A DNA stretch of 37,426 nucleotides from Candidatus Kuenenia stuttgartensis (GTDB taxonomy: Bacteria; Planctomycetota; Planctomycetia; Planctomycetales; Planctomycetaceae), in assembly GCA_945861465.1 (NCBI GenBank), contig CAMAVB010000047.1, forward strand, positions 1 to 37,426. Direction: 5' to 3'. The notes under the pieces were generated by a model. That model had not been told where the DNA came from and made no database searches. It saw only the letters and a program-made list of their open reading frames with translations. The translations under genes were made by a program, and so were the position numbers. Positions 3,108-33,077 of this stretch are shown here, in pieces; within the stretch, counting starts at the first letter, position 1; each line of letters starts with the position of its first letter.

Positions 3108-3339
3108 CCTGCTCACTCCTGAAGAATTGACAGTCCGTGATAGTGAACATACCGCAGTGCAGGAGATACCTCGAATGCAATCGGCGCAGTTCTACATGGC
3201 AATTCCTTCGGCGCGATCAGCAAATCCGTTTCATCCAAACCAAAAATCCAGTTCGTGGATGGAGAACGAGGATTTCGATTGTGCATACAACCAGTACAAT
3301 CAAACCAGTCATACTTCGAGTCTTCAATTTCGGCATTTT

Positions 3340-3405
3340 CGTTTAACGGCGAGCCGCAGGCGTAGGCGAAACTTCGCACCGACGCCTGCGGCTTGCCGTT
3401 AAACG
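3340..3405. repeat. Palindromic repeat family B, copy 1
   Basis: Inverted repeat with arms CGTTTAACGGCGAGCCGCAG and its complement ending CTTGCCGTTAAACG. A near-identical copy lies at 20631-20696. At both places it is next to, or inside, a family C palindrome. Confidence 0.85.
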
Positions 3406-3424
3406 ATTAAGACGACAGTCCCCT

Positions 3425-3526
3425 TCGATTTCTTCTATCAGCCGGTACGCACTAGCGTCCGGTTTATTCAGAAGTACGGGGGAAACCGGGTGCTGGCGCA
3501 TTGCGGCTAATGCAAGTTGCGATCAA
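3425..3526. repeat. Palindromic repeat family C, copy 1
   Basis: The unit runs from TTCGATTTCTTCT through the palindromic blocks AGCCGGTACGCACTAGCGTC and CCGGGTGCTGGCGCATTGCG to GTTGCGATCAAA. It matches 18008-18113 along its full length. Shorter relatives are at 9738-9814, around 20545-20745 (split) and at 29639-29667. Confidence 0.85.
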
Positions 3527-3659
3527 ATCGAGTGCCATTGGGCATTTTCTGGTTCATCGACAAATAAAGTGCGCAAGAAAAGTTCCGGTGGTCGGAGATC
3601 GAATGAACGTCGAATCGTTCAGTGCGCTCTGGCAAACTGAATAAAGGGAGTGATGACTG

Positions 3660-6865: not shown

Positions 6866-6993
6866 GTGTTAGTGCAAGCAGAACTTGTCCCGATCAGGGC
6901 AATCCCGACGGAACACCAGAATCTATCCGACGCTGACTTCGAAACACGGCTGCTGCTGACTCAGGGCGAGGACTGCCGAATCCCACTGCGATC

Positions 6994-7229
6994 GGGCCCC
7001 TGCCGGCCCTGTGCCGGTAGAAGCCAGGTTTGACAACTACCACACGCCCCTCCGCGCCACTCGAGCCCCTGCCGGCTTCATGCCGGTAGAGCCCAGGTTT
7101 GACCACTTTGCCGCCCGAGTCTCCAAACCCTTGTTCCCCCGGCATGAAGCCGGGCGGGGACAAAGCACCGTGTTGGTTTCCTGTAGTTTCCAAACCCTGG
7201 CTCACCCGGCGTGAAGCCGGGGTGGGGCC
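6994..7229. repeat. Dispersed repeat family A, copy 2, with an extra partial unit
   Basis: 7065-7229 matches the reverse complement of 1013-1180 and carries the same three palindromes (CCGGCTTCATGCCGG, CCCGGCATGAAGCCGGG, CCGGCGTGAAGCCGG) in the same spacing. A further partial unit precedes it at 6994-7043 (GCCGGCCCTGTGCCGG, then CAGGTTTGACAACTAC), suggesting growth or loss of units. The spacer continues to 7600 with scattered CAGGCCGGAT-like fragments and no credible gene. The 207-codon open frame on the minus strand over this region is an effect of the repeat. Confidence 0.8.
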
Positions 7230-7600
7230 GAGCGAGGCATGGGGGCAGTTGATGACGGAACAAGAACCGGGTGAACAACGATTCGACAAGTCACTTCTCC
7301 CCCGAAATCGAGTGAGCAAGTGGCCGACAGGCCGGATGAGGGGATTGTCGAGTATGGCAACGTGAAAAAAACCCACTCGCCCTGCCGCAGGAGCTCTTGA
7401 GTTTGTAGGCCGGACCGAGCAAACCCAACGAAAGCCGGAGCGGCGTCCGCCAGTCAAATCCAGATCGACACGACAGCGTGTCACAAAGAGGAATCCGGGT
7501 TTGCGCTGTTCCGGCATCGGCGGCGGACTTGATCCGGCCTACACCGTGCGCAAATGCGGGTTATACTCGCAAGGCACAAGGCAACACACAGACTGAAACA

Positions 7601-7687: not shown

Positions 7688-9451
7688 CTAGTTGCCCGGC
7701 GCACTCAGCGTTTCGAGTTCGTTCAATCGCTTGAGGGCTGCGGCGGCCTTCAGCGTCCCATAATTAATCCCTGCGGCACTCAAGTTTCCACCTTCCTGGA
7801 ACGGAAACTCTGGAATCGTCATCAGGAACTTTTTCACTTGTTGTTGCACCGGTACGAACAACCAGATGTTGTCCCCATACCAACGCATATACATCTCGGA
7901 TTCGTACGGCATTTTCTCGTACGGATCCGCCTTTAGGTGCACAATCATCGGCCAACCCGGCACGTCGCGTGTGGCGGTCGCGATGTTCCCATTCACAACG
8001 GCGAAATGAACTTTCCAGTCATTCCAGCGGACTGCGTTCAACTCACCGCCAGCACCGAAGTAAAGGATCTGTTCGCGCGGCCCGTCTTTCACGTCGCCGT
8101 TAAAATAGGGCAGAAAATTGTAACCGTCGGCGTGAACCTTGAATGTCTTGCCATTGGCCTTGTACCCTTCCTTCAGCTTTTCGACGATGTTGGGTTCGCC
8201 AGCGGCAGCCAGAAAGGTTGGCAGCCAGTCTTCCTGCGAAAAGATCTCGTTGACGAGAGTCCCGGGTTTGATCACGCCAGGCCAGCGAACGAGCATTGGC
8301 ACGCGGAAGCCACCTTCCCAAGTGGTCCCTTTTTCGCCGTGGAACGGAGTGATTCCACCATCAGGCCACGACGCCGTTTCTGCGCCGTTGTCGGTGCCGT
8401 AGACCAGGATGGTGTTTTCGGCCAAACCCAAGTCGTCGAGCTTCTTCAGGACTTGACCGACGAAGCCATCATGCTCCACCATGCCATCGGGATAGAGGCC
8501 GATGCCCGTGACACCTTCGGACTCCTTCTTGAGATGCGTCCAGACGTGCATGCGGGTGCTGTTGTACCACATGAAGAATGGCTTCTTCGCTTTGGCGTTG
8601 CGATCCAGGAAGTCCATTGCCTTGGCGTGGACTTCTTCATCAATCGTTTCCATACGCTTTCTGGTCAGTGGGCCAGTGTCTTCGATGGTCTGGCCACCCT
8701 TACCGTCCGATTTGCAATGGAGTACGCCGCGTGGACCATACTTCTTTTTGAACTCCGGATCTTTCGGGTAGTAGTAAGTTTCCGGCTCTTCTTCGGCATT
8801 CAGATGGTAAAGGTTGCCGAAGAACTCATCGAACCCATGCATCGTGGGCAGATGTTTGTCCTTATCGCCGAGGTGGTTCTTACCGAACTGCCCGGTCGCG
8901 TAACCTTGTTCCTTCATGAGGTCGGCAATGGTCGGTGCCCAATCAGGAATTCCCTGATCGCTACCTGGCATCCCGATGGTCAACAAGCCCGTGCGGAACG
9001 GGTGCTGTCCGAGGATGAACGAAGCCCGACCGGCGGTGCAACTTTGTTGCGCGTAGGCATCCGTGAACAGGGCACCTTCTTTAGCGATCCTGTCGATGTT
9101 CGGTGTGCGATACCCCATGATGCCATGATTGTAGGCACTGATGTTGTGGACGCCGATGTCGTCGCCCCAGAGGACGAGGATGTTCGGTTTTTTGCCGGCC
9201 GTGGCTGCCTGTGCGGAAACAAATTGATTGTGCTGCGCCAGTTTGAGCAGGTCAGACTGCGTCAATTTGTCCTCGCAGCAGCCGACGCATTTCGGTTCGG
9301 TTGACAATTCAGCCGGGATGTGTGCACCAGACTGTTCTGCAAGGACCCCAGCCTTCACGGGCTGCTGAATCTGGAAGGATGCGGTCATGCGCCCGAGCCC
9401 GGCGGCCAGCATCACGACCAAAACGGATTTCCACAGGAAACGACGATTCAT
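7688..9451 (-). CDS. Exported formylglycine-dependent sulfatase (arylsulfatase type)
   Basis: The product is 587 residues with a signal-like N terminus (MNRRFLWKSVLVVMLAAGLG). Sulfatase signatures: metal-binding WGDDIG near residues 96-100; the nucleophile motif CTAGR at 138-142, whose Cys138 is converted to formylglycine by FGE-type enzymes; GQFGKNHLGD; HVWTHLKK; and YGTDNGAE, a second metal site. The expected reaction is hydrolysis of sulfate esters, probably on sulfated polysaccharides, in the periplasm or outside. A CVGCC cluster at residues 55-59 lies before the catalytic domain and is not part of the usual fold. The start at 9451 has GGGAG 6 bases upstream; a frame extension to 9505 lacks this. 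No FGE gene or second sulfatase is in the window. The substrate cannot be told from sequence. A 455-codon antisense frame over this gene is a shadow. Confidence 0.93.
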   Translation of the reverse strand: MNRRFLWKSVLVVMLAAGLGRMTASFQIQQPVKAGVLAEQSGAHIPAELSTEPKCVGCCEDKLTQSDLLKLAQHNQFVSAQAATAGKKPNILVLWGDDIGVHNISAYNHGIMGYRTPNIDRIAKEGALFTDAYAQQSCTAGRASFILGQHPFRTGLLTIGMPGSDQGIPDWAPTIADLMKEQGYATGQFGKNHLGDKDKHLPTMHGFDEFFGNLYHLNAEEEPETYYYPKDPEFKKKYGPRGVLHCKSDGKGGQTIEDTGPLTRKRMETIDEEVHAKAMDFLDRNAKAKKPFFMWYNSTRMHVWTHLKKESEGVTGIGLYPDGMVEHDGFVGQVLKKLDDLGLAENTILVYGTDNGAETASWPDGGITPFHGEKGTTWEGGFRVPMLVRWPGVIKPGTLVNEIFSQEDWLPTFLAAAGEPNIVEKLKEGYKANGKTFKVHADGYNFLPYFNGDVKDGPREQILYFGAGGELNAVRWNDWKVHFAVVNGNIATATRDVPGWPMIVHLKADPYEKMPYESEMYMRWYGDNIWLFVPVQQQVKKFLMTIPEFPFQEGGNLSAAGINYGTLKAAAALKRLNELETLSAPGN

Positions 9452-9711: not shown

Positions 9712-9849
9712 TATACTGCACGCGGCTGAGAACGAGGTATCAGCCGGAGTGCGTTAGCACCCGGTTCTTGCATAGCATGCGGACCTAACCGGACGCTATC
9801 GCGTTCCGGCTGATAACGCAGGGCATCATTCCTGACCGCGTGCAGTATA
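9712..9849. repeat. Nested 138-bp palindromic element containing family C sequence
   Basis: The outer arms TATACTGCACGCGG (9712-9725) and CCGCGTGCAGTATA (9836-9849) are perfect complements. Nested inside, ATCAGCCGGAGTGCGTTAGC and CGCTATCGCGTTCCGGCTGAT (9738-9814) form a second inverted repeat of family C. The rest of the spacer between the sulfatase start and 10125 has short repeats such as TCCTGCCTGCCCGGCAG (twice, about 9986-10030) and no credible gene. Confidence 0.8.
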
Positions 9850-10249: not shown

Positions 10250-10720
10250 TCATTTCGTCTTGTGATCGCCATCTTCAGCAAACACGTTCGAGTAGAAAAG
10301 ACCAGCGGCAGCGGAACCGATCAACGGTGCGACCCAGAACAACCACAATTGTGAAATTGCCCAGCCACCGACAAAAATCGCCGGGCCTGTGCTGCGGGCC
10401 GGGTTGACCGACAAGTTGGTCACCGGAATTCCTATCAGGTGAATCCGTGTCAGTCCAAGGCCAATCGCGATCGGAGCGAATCCTGCGGGTGCCCGACGGT
10501 CGGTTGCTCGCATAATGATCATCAGGAAGCAGAAGGTGAGTACGACTTCCGAAACAAAACCGGCCAGCAGTGAGTACTTAGGCGAGCGGCAGGATAGAAC
10601 TTACCATTCGCAATTTGTACGACGGACTGGAAGTCCGTCGTACCGGTAAATTCATTTCTGCCGCTCGCCTTGTTGGGAGAATGTTCTGCAAAACCATTTG
10701 CCGCGAAACCATGATGCACA
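10250..10720 (-). pseudogene. aqpZ: Aquaporin Z remnant, 5'-deleted and interrupted by element M1
   Basis: On the minus strand, 10671-10720 encodes GFAANGFAEHSPN, matching the loop before helix 5 of AqpZ. The frame is then broken by the element at 10580-10670 and resumes at 10579 as [20 protein letters not shown], continuing through [20 protein letters not shown], the second NPA box ([15 protein letters not shown]) and the last helix to the stop at 10250. The element adds about 92 bases, not a multiple of three, so translation shifts frame and ends after about 65 codons. The first half of aquaporin, with helices 1-3 and the first NPA box, is absent: sequence upstream of 10720 has no similarity and runs into the end of the SecA-like gene. 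The gene is therefore doubly disabled. The symbol marks its ancestor only. Confidence 0.85.
10580..10670. repeat. Palindromic MITE-like element, family M1, copy 2 (91 bp), inserted in aquaporin
   Basis: Same 13-base inverted ends as 1203-1326 (AGGCGAGCGGCAG / CTGCCGCTCGCCT), the same sub-terminal sequence (GATAGAACTTACCAT on one side, GGTAAATTCATTTCTGC on the other), but only one inner palindrome (GACGGACTGGAAGTCCGTC). The two copies are in opposite orientation. The surrounding sequence is a recognisable gene on both sides, so the insertion edges can be read to within about 3 bases. Any target-site duplication must be very short. Confidence 0.9.
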
Positions 10721-12735: not shown

Positions 12736-15219
12736 TCATTTTCCAAATGAATGTCCGCCAAACGAGACGGGTCGATCAGGATTGAGTCTGGCCGTTGCCG
12801 GTTGATTCGGCTCATGCACCGAATTGGCTTCTCCCGGAGGTGCCGCAGGAGGTTGTGACAACGCTGCAGGTGGATGATCTTGTGCGTGAGCAATTTCCGG
12901 TGTCCGGAAACTGACAGGGCGAGTTGTTCGTTCTGCGAGCTCTGCAGCCGTCTGTTCGGCGCGGGCCGTCATCCATTCGGATTCCTCCGGATCGATGTCC
13001 GGGGCCTCGTGACGCGATCGCATCAGCGTTCCCGTCGCGCGCCGCAGCTGGATGATCGAGAGAGCATAACTGGTCTGAGCCGTGACAAAGGCCGATTCTT
13101 CGTCGGCGAGGCGTTCGTATCCGTCGAGCAGGTCTTCCAGCAGCAACATCGTGGAATCTTCGATCATCGGCAACAAACTGAATTGATCCTGCAGGAAAGT
13201 GACTTCGTGCTGTGCGGCAACCATCGCCTGATATTTGCCCAGCATATCGCGGTACGCCGTATCGACTTCGCGGTTTGAAATTTCTACTTCCGTCAATGAA
13301 GTCTCCACGGTCACACGAAATGCCGCGATCGCCCGCTTGAGTTCCCATTGTCTTTGTTCCATCTTCGCCCTTGCGGCCCGGTTTCCCAGAGGCACTTCGA
13401 ATTCAAGACCCAGGGTATACCCCGGACGGCCAGATGAAAACTGGTCAACAATCGAGCCTCCAATCTGATCGTCGTTGTCCAACCCTGCCACGTAAGAAGT
13501 GACCAGAAAGTCCAGACGCGGCAGTAGTTCGCTTTTACTGACACCGATGCGGACGCTGGATGCTCTCATCTGACGAATGGCTCGTGAAATATCGGGACGA
13601 TTCACAAGAGCTGTTTCCAGTGAATCCCGCAATCCTGCGGGTGACGGCATTGAAGCTGGTGACTCGGACGGAGTGAATTCCAGCGGGCCGCTGTTCAACA
13701 TCGACGGATCATTCACCAGAAGTCGCAGGCGGGATTCTGCATTTCGAATATCCGTTACCGCCCGCTGCATGCGTGATTCCGCTCGCGCCACGGCGGCCCG
13801 CGCCCGCAGAATCTGACGCGGAATTGTGTTAAGGACCGACGCAGAAATAACTGTCGTCTTCCGGACGTCGGGCACGTTTTCAAAGTGCCCGGCACGATGG
13901 AATCGTGTCCCACCTATTTCTGTCTCAGTCGTAACCTGATTTCGTCCAGCAAGGGTCTGCAGGACGCGCTGAGCGGACACGAGCAGTTTCTGACGCTGGA
14001 AATACTCGGCCCGAGCCCGATAAAGACGCCAGTAAGCTTCAGCCACGCCAAAGAGGTGTGTCTGAAGTTCCTGTAAAGTTTCATCACTGACCACGTTGGA
14101 ACTGATGCCCGCCAGCACAATCTGATGCTGGTTATAGACTGTTCCAGCCTTGCTCATCAGTGGCTGCCGGAAGCTGAGTTCCAGGCGTGTCGTGGACTGC
14201 GCATTGGGTTGCAGAAAGATCGAATTGTTGTACTGGTGACCAATCGCCTGGCCGATCTGAAATTCGCCGCCGGATTCGGTGCGACGTCTGAGGCCTCCCA
14301 GCGAATTGACCTTGTTGTCCAAAAAGCGGCTGGCACTGTTTCCAGTCGTCAGTGTGTTGCCGACCGGGTCGTTGAGGTCGCTGTACTCTGTATCAAGGAA
14401 CGTACGCCAGTCGAATGCTGCTGTTTCCTGATGCACGATCGTGTATTGCACTTCCGGATCGGCCTGCAGCACCTGGACCTGCGGTGAGTGAGCCAGGGCC
14501 TGTTGAACCAGTGTGGCGACTTCGACAGGAAAAGTTCCTGACGCCAGCCCTGCACTCTGACGTATCATCGGATCCCACCAGGCGACGAAGTCGGCCGGCA
14601 ACTCCACAGACGGCGTCAATGTGGGTGAATCTTCAATGCCCTGTGGCATTTTCCCCGTGCGACCATAATACGGTCCCATCCACGCCGGGGCGTCGTACTC
14701 CACCGTGGCTCGAAAGCCGGATGTTTCCGGTGCATAACCAGCCTGCGGCGGCGGACCAGCATGTCGATCGCCAGAGTAGTGAGCACCTGGATGCGGCGCG
14801 ACGATTTCCGGCTGATGTCCGGTTGAATGCGTTACCGGAGCTGACTGTTTTTCAGATCGATCACCCGCCGATACCTGGAGAACCGGCCGTTGCAGGACAC
14901 CCCATGGCTGGGCAGAAACAGGAGTATCAGGGCCGCAATGACGGCCGCCAGATTTCAACAATGCCTGACGAACGACCGGTGCCCGAACGACCGGTGCCTG
15001 CCCCACTGGAATCGTTTGCCCCACTGGAATCGTTTCGGCCTGTACCTGGTCCGCGCCGCGCGGCACAATCATCATTCCGGAACTGTCAGCGGGATCGGAT
15101 ACCGTTGGGGCGGCCTGGAGAAGGGATTCCGGCATCAGATTCAGCGTCGCACAGGCGGTGATCAACGTGACCACACTCAGGCAGCGGAATGCTCTGCCGT
15201 CTTGCCGGAACCCACGCAT
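12736..15219 (-). CDS. TolC-family outer-membrane efflux protein with an in-frame repeat insertion
   Basis: The product is 827 residues from ATG 15219, with a signal-like stretch (CLSVVTLITACATLNLMPES). An open frame to ATG 15288 adds 23 residues. Residues about 40-210 are a low-complexity Pro/Gly/Gln-rich extension with two tandem DNA duplications (15 bases at 14969-14998, 18 bases at 14999-15034) that encode APVVR and PVGQTI twice. From about 230 come two outer-membrane-efflux (OEP) repeats: EVATLVQQALAHSPQVQVLQ, RLELSFRQPLMSKAGTVYNQ and a long coiled coil; then IPRQILRARAAVARAESRMQ, RLRLLVNDPSML, LVNRPDISRAIRQMRASSVR and GLEFEVPLGNRAARAK, with a C-terminal tail. Between the halves, residues about 429-464 are encoded by a palindromic element also found outside genes. 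A 28-base gap separates it from the SecA-like gene, so the two are probably one transcript. Confidence 0.88.
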   Translation of the reverse strand: MRGFRQDGRAFRCLSVVTLITACATLNLMPESLLQAAPTVSDPADSSGMMIVPRGADQVQAETIPVGQTIPVGQAPVVRAPVVRQALLKSGGRHCGPDTPVSAQPWGVLQRPVLQVSAGDRSEKQSAPVTHSTGHQPEIVAPHPGAHYSGDRHAGPPPQAGYAPETSGFRATVEYDAPAWMGPYYGRTGKMPQGIEDSPTLTPSVELPADFVAWWDPMIRQSAGLASGTFPVEVATLVQQALAHSPQVQVLQADPEVQYTIVHQETAAFDWRTFLDTEYSDLNDPVGNTLTTGNSASRFLDNKVNSLGGLRRRTESGGEFQIGQAIGHQYNNSIFLQPNAQSTTRLELSFRQPLMSKAGTVYNQHQIVLAGISSNVVSDETLQELQTHLFGVAEAYWRLYRARAEYFQRQKLLVSAQRVLQTLAGRNQVTTETEIGGTRFHRAGHFENVPDVRKTTVISASVLNTIPRQILRARAAVARAESRMQRAVTDIRNAESRLRLLVNDPSMLNSGPLEFTPSESPASMPSPAGLRDSLETALVNRPDISRAIRQMRASSVRIGVSKSELLPRLDFLVTSYVAGLDNDDQIGGSIVDQFSSGRPGYTLGLEFEVPLGNRAARAKMEQRQWELKRAIAAFRVTVETSLTEVEISNREVDTAYRDMLGKYQAMVAAQHEVTFLQDQFSLLPMIEDSTMLLLEDLLDGYERLADEESAFVTAQTSYALSIIQLRRATGTLMRSRHEAPDIDPEESEWMTARAEQTAAELAERTTRPVSFRTPEIAHAQDHPPAALSQPPAAPPGEANSVHEPNQPATARLNPDRPVSFGGHSFGK
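13829..13934. repeat. Palindromic MITE-like element, family M2, inside the TolC-type gene (in frame)
   Basis: 106 bases with ends TTAAGGACC and CAGTCGTAA and an inner palindrome GGGCACGTTTTCAAAGTGCC. It aligns base by base with the reverse complement of the intergenic element at 15364-15468, sharing for example GAGAAATAACTGTCGTCTTC-like sequence (GCAGAAATAACTGTCGTCTT here). On the coding strand it reads through without a stop and gives GGTRFHRAGHFENVPDVRKT within the protein. Homologous TolC-like proteins normally run directly from LAGR-type to IPRQILRARAAVARAES-type sequence here, so this is an insertion into a working gene. Confidence 0.85.
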
Positions 15220-15363
15220 CAACCTGCCAACGCCGCTCGTCCGAGCCGTATTCGACGGTTGTTCAGAGTGTTCGGGAAAGTGATACATGGATGGTCAGAT
15301 AATCGTCATATCCGACAAAGTTGATCCAACCAATCGTCCGCCGGCACACTCGGATTATTGGGA

Positions 15364-15468
15364 TTAGGACTGCGGCAGAATTAAGTGGGGCACGATTCCA
15401 TCGCGCCGGGCACGTTACAAACGTGCCCCACGCCCGGAAGACGACAGTTATTTCTCCGCCAGTCCTTA
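15364..15468. repeat. Palindromic MITE-like element, family M2, intergenic copy
   Basis: About 105 bases with inverted ends TTAGGACTG and CAGTCCTTA, and a central palindrome GGGCACGTTACAAACGTGCCC. It lies 75 bases upstream of the longest frame of the TolC-type gene, which carries the second copy. Its ends are better matched than those of the genic copy, so this copy looks less diverged from the parent element. Confidence 0.85.
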
Positions 15469-18007: not shown

Positions 18008-18113
18008 CGATTTCTTCTGTCTATCGGCCGGAACGCATTAGCGTCCGGTTTGCTCAAAAATACTTGGAAAACCGGGTGCTAACGCACTGCGGCTGATTCA
18101 GGTTGCGATCAAA
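18008..18113. repeat. Palindromic repeat family C, copy 2, overlapping the end of gatA
   Basis: It matches 3425-3526 along its length: TCGATTTCTTCT, then GGCCGGAACGCATTAGCGTC, then ACCGGGTGCTAACGCACTGC, then GGTTGCGATCAAA. The last block, read on the minus strand as TTTGATCGCAACCTGA, is the final codons and stop of gatA (Leu-Ile-Ala-Thr-stop), so the element overlaps the coding sequence by 16 bases. Confidence 0.85.
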
Positions 18114-20544: not shown

Positions 20545-20745
20545 TCATTAGCCGCAGCGTGCTAGCCCCGGTTCCTGCACTACAAACCGGGGCCAGCGGG
20601 GTGTTGAATTAGTCACTCGGATCAGGTTTTCGTTTAACGGCAAGCCGCAGGCGTCTGTTACCATGAACGCCGACGCCTGCGGCTTGCCGTTAAACGATGA
20701 AGTCAACAGACCGCTAGCGCCCTGCGGCTAATTGGGTTGCGGGCC
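20545..20745. repeat. Family C palindrome split by a family B palindrome
   Basis: A family C left half (TTAGCCGCAGCGTGCTAGCC, about 20548-20567, with an inner CCCCGGTT...AACCGGGG stem) is followed by a complete family B element at 20631-20696 (CGTTTAACGGCAAGCCGCAG and complement), and then by a family C right half (CCGCTAGCGCCCTGCGGCTA, GGGTTGCGGG). This reads as one element inserted in another. The rest of the dcd-ricT spacer (20222-20544) shows no gene apart from the family S copy. Confidence 0.7.
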
Positions 20746-22173: not shown

Positions 22174-22581
22174 GTGATTCATCATTTCCTGACGCCCCTG
22201 CGCCATCAACGCACATGCGCCTCACTCCGTAAATGCTAAGAGTTTTGTATTCGTGAGACGATTCTGGCACAGCGACAGATGTCCGCCGACTGAGCGGCGG
22301 ACCTGCGCAGGCGAACCGCTCCGTCGGCTCGCGCCAGACACGGAGGCAAAGCCAGTGATACGTCGCTCGGTTGGCACTGACTCGTTTAACCTCGTACCCA
22401 GCGGGCCGTAATTGTTCGTATTTGAAATTTGAAATTTGAAATACAAAGCGCAGGCCGTTGCCCATCGTGGCATCGCTTCACAGCAAGTGGCACACCGGAG
22501 TGTTTCTCGGTACTCTTCGTGACTTCGACTGTTTGACTTTCGACCCCAACGGCCTCCTGTCCCGATTCTGCAAGCCACTTC
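22174..22581. other. Repeat-rich spacer between the Minf_1886-type gene and rlmB-like gene
   Basis: No credible gene. It contains a short hairpin GTCCGCCGACTGAGCGGCGG (from 22281), and a family D repeat at 22385-22470. Minus-strand frames here are extensions of shadows of the methyltransferase gene. Confidence 0.55.
22385..22470. repeat. Dispersed repeat family D, copy 2
   Basis: The ends GTTTAACCTCGTACCCAGCG and GGCCGTTGCCCATCG correspond to those of 1431-1524 in the opposite orientation. The core is three ATTTGAA heptamers (22420-22440) followed by ATACAAAGCG. Confidence 0.75.
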
Positions 22582-33009: not shown

Positions 33010-33077
33010 TTGTTTTATTTGAAATTTGAAATTTGAAATTTGAAATACGAAGCGGGGCGTTGCCCACGCGGTTAAAC
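33010..33077. repeat. Dispersed repeat family D, copy 3
   Basis: Four perfect tandem ATTTGAA heptamers (33017-33044), then ATACGAAGCG and GGGCGTTGCCCACGCGGTTA. The other two copies carry three heptamers (22420-22440) or a degenerate palindrome, so the heptamer count varies between copies. Confidence 0.8.

Follow-up and report, generated by a model that had tools for sequence, protein, structure and literature searches.

A 99-nt miniature inverted-repeat element lying in frame in a TolC-family gene of a probable planctomycete, with ends that resemble those of ISAzo13-family transposons

A palindromic stretch lies inside a gene for a TolC/OEP-family outer membrane efflux protein (12736–15288, minus strand; 850 aa), and this locus raises the question of what that stretch is, how it came there and how a coding sequence could take it up with its reading frame kept. 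The window, the 37,426-nt stretch of DNA analyzed here, is the whole of contig C47 in a draft genome of 8.22 Mb and 474 contigs, probably that of a planctomycete. The first-pass annotation had described the host gene as otherwise intact and free of stops in the coding frame, and so it is: the open reading frame (ORF) runs through the insert with no internal stop, and codon-use scores are positive on both sides of it. The protein is 65–71% identical to its orthologues over the aligned parts and has an OEP match at residues 555–753, while its TolC/NodT profile matches are weak and far below the cut-offs. Six orthologues from the same genus lack exactly 102 nt, or 34 residues (453–486), where about 36 had been proposed, and all six rejoin at the same codon into continuous TolC-family sequence, as had been stated for the flanks. 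The insert does not sit at the junction of the two OEP halves, as first described, but inside the first half, because one OEP match of the insert-free orthologue L062 (residues 323–495) spans the insertion site after residue 455. Neither the protein nor its alignment matched the sequence of any solved structure at E 0.01; on a TolC fold, the insert would presumably lie near the turn at the periplasmic side that joins two helices of the tunnel.

The inserted DNA comprises a 99-nt element (13833–13931, minus strand; GGACTGAG... in the orientation of the element) and one copy of a 3-bp target duplication, the two triplets of which (13830–13832 and 13932–13934) read TAA on the plus strand and TTA in the gene. 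Terminal inverted repeats form the right end of the element (13833–13850, plus strand, GGACCGACGCAGAAATAA) and its left end (13914–13931, minus strand, CGACTGAGACAGAAATAG), and 92 of the 99 positions equal the family consensus. A second copy occupies 15367–15465 on the plus strand, in the opposite orientation, about 76 nt upstream of the host gene start and between its own TTA triplets (15364–15366 and 15466–15468). The alignment of a 106-bp element with this intergenic stretch, proposed in the first-pass annotation, stands as far as the repeat is concerned and fails in its orientation: 13830–13934 and 15364–15468 are 86% complementary over 105 nt, and their same-strand alignment is poor. The suggestion that the spacer copy could encode the same peptide was borne out by RTAAELSGARFHRAGHVTNVPHARKTTVISPPVL on the plus strand, the copy itself being intergenic. 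The end motif occurs four times in the window, where shuffled sequence has it 0.01 times on average, and as a single strand the window copy folds far below its shuffles (z −5.2, with 0 of 200 shuffles as low).

The element belongs to a large family. The further genomic copies that the first-pass annotation had looked to number in the hundreds, with 277 genome-wide matches (145 forward and 132 reverse) to a 32-nt core pattern at ≤3 mismatches and none to the reversed control pattern; a BLAST search of the same genome placed 40 of the 41 matches listed at E 8e-35 or better (40 of 400 candidates scored). No match to the core was present in 17 other genomes of the genus, a search that a diverged relative could escape because it covered the 32-nt core at ≤3 mismatches only. 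Rfam at gathering scores, a phage collection and viral contigs likewise held no match to the element. The extracted loci supplied 139 non-overlapping copies (205 before the removal of overlaps, including opposite-strand partial matches of the palindrome), copies close to the end of a locus having been excluded beforehand. Alignment reached both ends in 119 of these, and the 20 with an unaligned end were excluded from the duplication count. Length is strongly conserved among the 119 (110 of 99 nt, four of 98, three of 100 and one each of 97 and 80), and the 110 copies of 99 nt have a mean identity of 95% to the consensus, a figure that favours well-kept copies, exact core matches having guided the retrieval of most loci. 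At its two ends (GGACTGAGACAGAAATAA and GGACCGGCGCAGAAATAA) the element has inverted repeats that are imperfect: in 88 of the 98 distinct copies, the 18-nt ends of one copy match each other at 11–14 of 18 positions. The interior consists of two hairpins; across the 98 distinct copies, pairing is lost in 16 of 1862 pair cells, and one pair changes from G-C to A-T in 42 copies. The features of a miniature inverted-repeat element (MITE) are all present, in that the element is short, in high copy, without a transposase, bounded by terminal inverted repeats and flanked by a target duplication; 13833–13931 is a non-autonomous MITE.

Other repeats surround it. Two stretches of the window, 1201–1328 and 10578–10670, belong to a second MITE-like family whose ends are related (TAAGGCGAGCGGCAGAAATGAATTTACCGG...). 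One of these copies is flanked TAA/TAA; the interior hairpin of the family is ACGGACTTCCAGTCCGT, its inner ACCGG resembles ISAzo13 ends, and L180 contains another copy. At L083 (1410–1530), ends of the MITE type enclose different interior hairpins (GGATGCTGCCAGCATCC and GACGCTGCCAGCGTCC), which suggests from the sequence that ends and interior hairpins may be exchanged between elements. The interior double hairpin is found with different ends, among the matches listed, at 7776–7830 of L182, from a Pirellulaceae bacterium metagenome-assembled genome (JADHUC010000134.1). Further families of hairpin repeats lie in the window at 996–1180 and 6992–7245 and at 3330–3530, 9739–9818, 18020–18113 and 20627–20715, and short ATTTGAAATTTGAAATTTGAAATAC-like repeats at 22420–22450, 33010–33054 and 1468–1498.

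The flanking triplets record how the MITE inserts. Left and right triplets are identical in 83 of the 119 full copies, whereas 5000 shuffled pairings average 36.7 and never exceed 55, and 78 of the 83 are TTA or TAA (the other five being ATA, CAG, AAA, TTG and GAA). Agreement between the flanks is 0.84–0.90 at the three triplet positions, drops to 0.44 and 0.55 at the positions next to them and is lower farther out. A gene for a PD-(D/E)XK nuclease (L128), which we take to be AddB-like, offers a clean empty site: the genome's own sequence reads CCG-TAA-[99 nt]-TAA-GTGAC, the corresponding site reads CCG-TCA-GTGAC in G014 and CCG-TGA-GTGAC in G011, and the element is in none of the seven aligned relatives. 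The target has here simply been duplicated over 3 bp. At the insertion site of the TolC-family gene, the orthologues have a triplet other than TTA, so that one substitution must be assumed. Comparison with relatives resolves a clean net insertion of 102 nt in these two genes only. In a third, encoding an Lhr helicase, the query and subject coordinates of the orthologue alignment fit about 33–34 extra residues, and the gene was not counted as an empty site because the flanking linker is too variable.

The ends of the MITE and its 3-bp duplication resemble those of ISAzo13-family transposons, in likeness and not in identity. Among relatives, ISAzo13 ends (e.g., GGGCCCGGGCAAAAATAAC, GGGCTTGCGCAAAAAYAAC and GGAGTTGCACGACAATAA) were fixed by comparing the copies of multi-copy elements in G131 (5 copies), G191 (4) and G165 (2 and 2), and identical triplets flank 13 of 13 copies in these groups, 12 of them TNA and one TAG; the element at L187, read directly, is flanked TAA/TAA. 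Of the 18 ISAzo13 ends compared, 12 agree with one or other end of the MITE at ≥12 of 18 positions (11 of 14 without G279 and L187), a level reached in the window by 25–28 of 74,834 18-mers, the MITE ends themselves included. Six ends fall below that level: the two ends of G165b, the two of G279 and a single end each of G165a and L187. In G279, identical triplets flank three of six copies and the ends match the MITE at 10–11 of 18 positions. The genome itself carries one intact ISAzo13 transposase (C75, 421 aa; NCBIfam E 2.5e-170) at a locus with ends GGAGCCGCGCCAAAATAA and a second locus on C36 with ends GGATCCGCGCGACAATAA and two in-frame stops, and the ends of both agree with the better MITE end at only 12–14 of 18 positions. 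Triplets are inverted, not direct, at the genome's own L183 and L184 and at L186 of G042 (TAA/TTA, TTA/TAA and TTA/TAA, respectively). ISAzo13 is sparse in the genus, with matches in 4 of 18 genomes, this one included, and three of them over the cut-off. A genome search for the exact ends without the MITE interior returned no autonomous element, its 13 places consisting of 12 MITE variants and L083. Because the search of the draft found no partner with the same ends, "ISAzo13-type" describes a reading of the mechanism and not a filing of the element, and the master transposon is probably either missing from the draft or extinct.

That some other DDE family with a 3-bp TNA duplication moves the element, the likeness to ISAzo13 ends being convergence, is improbable. 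DDE transposases of this kind exist, the IS5-type group being an example, and both the failure to find the exact master and the presence of 12 DDE_Tnp_1 matches would suit such a mover; however, at ≤3 mismatches the DDE_Tnp_1 loci give only a MITE copy (L171) and an end of the second family (L180), and ISAzo13 ends and the MITE have in common both the GG...C..AAATAA pattern and the 3-bp duplication. DDE_Tnp_1 was set aside as a candidate partner: leaving the MITE copy out of account, its 12 loci contain no pair of matching ends.

The insertion keeps the reading frame because 99 nt and the 3-bp duplication make 102 nt, or 34 codons. Among the 110 copies with both triplets, stop-free frames are most frequent in F2 (107 copies), R2 (102) and R1 (71), with 2–7 copies in each of the others; over all frames 45% are open, and two to three of the six lack stops. 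The window copy reads in F2 as TTETEIGGTRFHRAGHFENVPDVRKTTVISASVL, its frame open despite 7 of 99 positions being off the consensus, and the consensus of the polar-peptide frame is RTETEISGARFHRAGHVKNVPHVRKTTVISAPVL. ORFs running across the empty site were scored for the 134 copies whose flanks were long enough, and 10 copies fall in an ORF that is coding-like on both sides and 124 outside such ORFs. This count rests on limits that were relaxed once stricter codon-score limits had given 6 of 134 and missed known cases. Nine of the 10 are read through, eight on the F strand in frame F2 and one on the R strand, and the copy at L147 meets a stop. The numbers are small, and selection enters this list as well: the window copy, L167 and L164 came to notice through their ORFs, the end-variant search supplied L093, and of five further places chosen for an open frame in a protein match, L164 and L167 are among the ten and three are below the limits. 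In a less selected list of 102 copies evaluated from core-pattern matches, six are in coding-like ORFs, of which five are open, all in F2, and one is stopped (P 0.07 for openness in any frame and 0.0006 for F2, copies taken as independent). By Pfam or NCBIfam the hosts include, besides the PDDEXK nuclease (L128), Lhr helicase (L059), FkbH (L114), Wzy_C (L164), CHAT (L024), NB-ARC/TPR (L109) and AAA_21 (L167) proteins, and the host ORF of L093 has no Pfam or NCBIfam match. The frame of the element is read through in several unrelated coding-like ORFs, that of the OEP protein among them. Neither of the two conditions that the first-pass annotation had named as refuting its reading was fulfilled by the data: the residues are absent from all six close orthologues, and the element has hundreds more copies, several of them in frame in other coding-like ORFs.

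That the TolC-family gene is a decaying pseudogene in which the insertion happens to be open and the protein is no longer used is an account to which we assign a small probability. The assembly is a draft, and at equal limits the OEP profile matches the window protein in three stretches and the four orthologues scanned in two, as decay might predict. Against this stand the intact frame of 850 aa, the level of identity to the orthologues, the copy that departs from its consensus and is still open, and the positive codon-use scores around it. The protein with its insert is presumably made and working.

Movement of the element, as a REPIN-like or TIR repeat, by a tyrosine (Y1) transposase of the RAYT type is very unlikely. 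Such transposases insert without target duplication. The element is palindromic and in high copy, and its genome contains 19 Y1_Tnp matches (L284–L302), much as would be expected of a RAYT system; in addition, REPs are reported in Planctomycetes, with many tyrosine transposase genes and flanking repeats in R. baltica, in the part of the source available (PMC3733652). Both the direct repeats around 83 of 119 copies and the clean duplication at the nuclease-gene empty site speak against it, as does the finding of a MITE copy at one of the 19 Y1 loci (56 kb in all; L295) where the density of 277 copies in 8.22 Mb predicts about 1.9. The Y1 locus L292 has one end-like match with two mismatches. 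With the target duplication present and no enrichment at Y1 genes, the element was not assigned to the REPIN/RAYT group. An ancestral origin of the inserted residues, with loss by the orthologues, has next to no probability, as the residues are a mobile element and its duplication and are absent from all six orthologues, which rejoin at the same codon.

Taken together, it is very probable that an ISAzo13-type DDE transposase moved the 99-nt MITE into the TolC-family gene in a frame-neutral insertion that left a tolerated peptide. Such a transposase would cut TNA-like targets with a 3-nt stagger, and each insertion would add 99 and 3 nt, that is 34 codons, and leave the frame unshifted. One stop-free frame of the element would yield a polar peptide that proteins seem to tolerate. 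Insertions in this frame at a tolerant place would survive as protein insertions, and others would be lost or kept in spacers; the bias toward F2 would then likely reflect selection and not targeting. A more speculative extension, for which the odds appear poor, is that the family is shaped to live in proteins, its frame-neutral length and tolerated polar frame fitting it to loops and linkers so that coding genes would be its habitat, and that ISAzo13 may seed like insertions in related bacteria. Should this be true, ISAzo13 elements would be a standing source of new protein segments in those bacteria. The 34-residue peptide, which recurs in several proteins of the species, is not a domain. 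Protein-embedded repeats are best known from Rickettsia, and here a genome with hundreds of copies allows the target duplication, the frame-neutral length and the candidate transposase family to be read from sequence, which makes the in-frame entry of selfish DNA into proteins directly testable.

A literature search on ISAzo13 and MITE returned PMC9208149 only, and no such element is described in the part of that paper retrieved; among the matches listed from the planctomycete literature on MITEs, target sites and palindromic repeats, the 99-nt family appears in no title or start of an abstract, and no report of its link to a transposase came up. The family has several points of contact with known systems. 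ISAzo13 elements (PF07592, NF033519) have the GG...C..AAATAA ends and a 3-bp duplication that is mostly TNA, but the compared copies are 1.3–1.4 kb long with a transposase, and no interior similarity to the MITE was seen. REP and REPIN-RAYT systems also consist of many short palindromic copies, with REPs described in planctomycetes in the available text of PMC3733652, whereas the MITE has a target duplication and is not enriched at Y1 genes. ERIC, the 107-bp NEMIS/Correia element and YPAL are also non-autonomous folded MITEs with open frames that fuse to genes, as far as the available text of their sources goes (PMC2229807, PMC10969869); ERIC and NEMIS termini carry TA (table in PMC2229807), unlike the TNA duplication and other ends of the 99-nt MITE. 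The Rickettsia palindromic elements (RPE), the parallel drawn in the first-pass annotation, are alike in behaviour: palindromic repeats of 100–150 bp with terminal inverted repeats, in spacers and in frame in unrelated genes, according to the portions of PMC10969869 and PMC2229807 drawn on here. The likeness drawn is one of behaviour, and the difference lies in the 3-bp duplication and suggested transposase family of the 99-nt MITE, the target duplication of RPE being marked as unknown in table 1 of the review (PMC2229807). Protein-embedded MITEs are a known kind, to which RPE, ERIC and NEMIS belong, and the 99-nt MITE is a new family.
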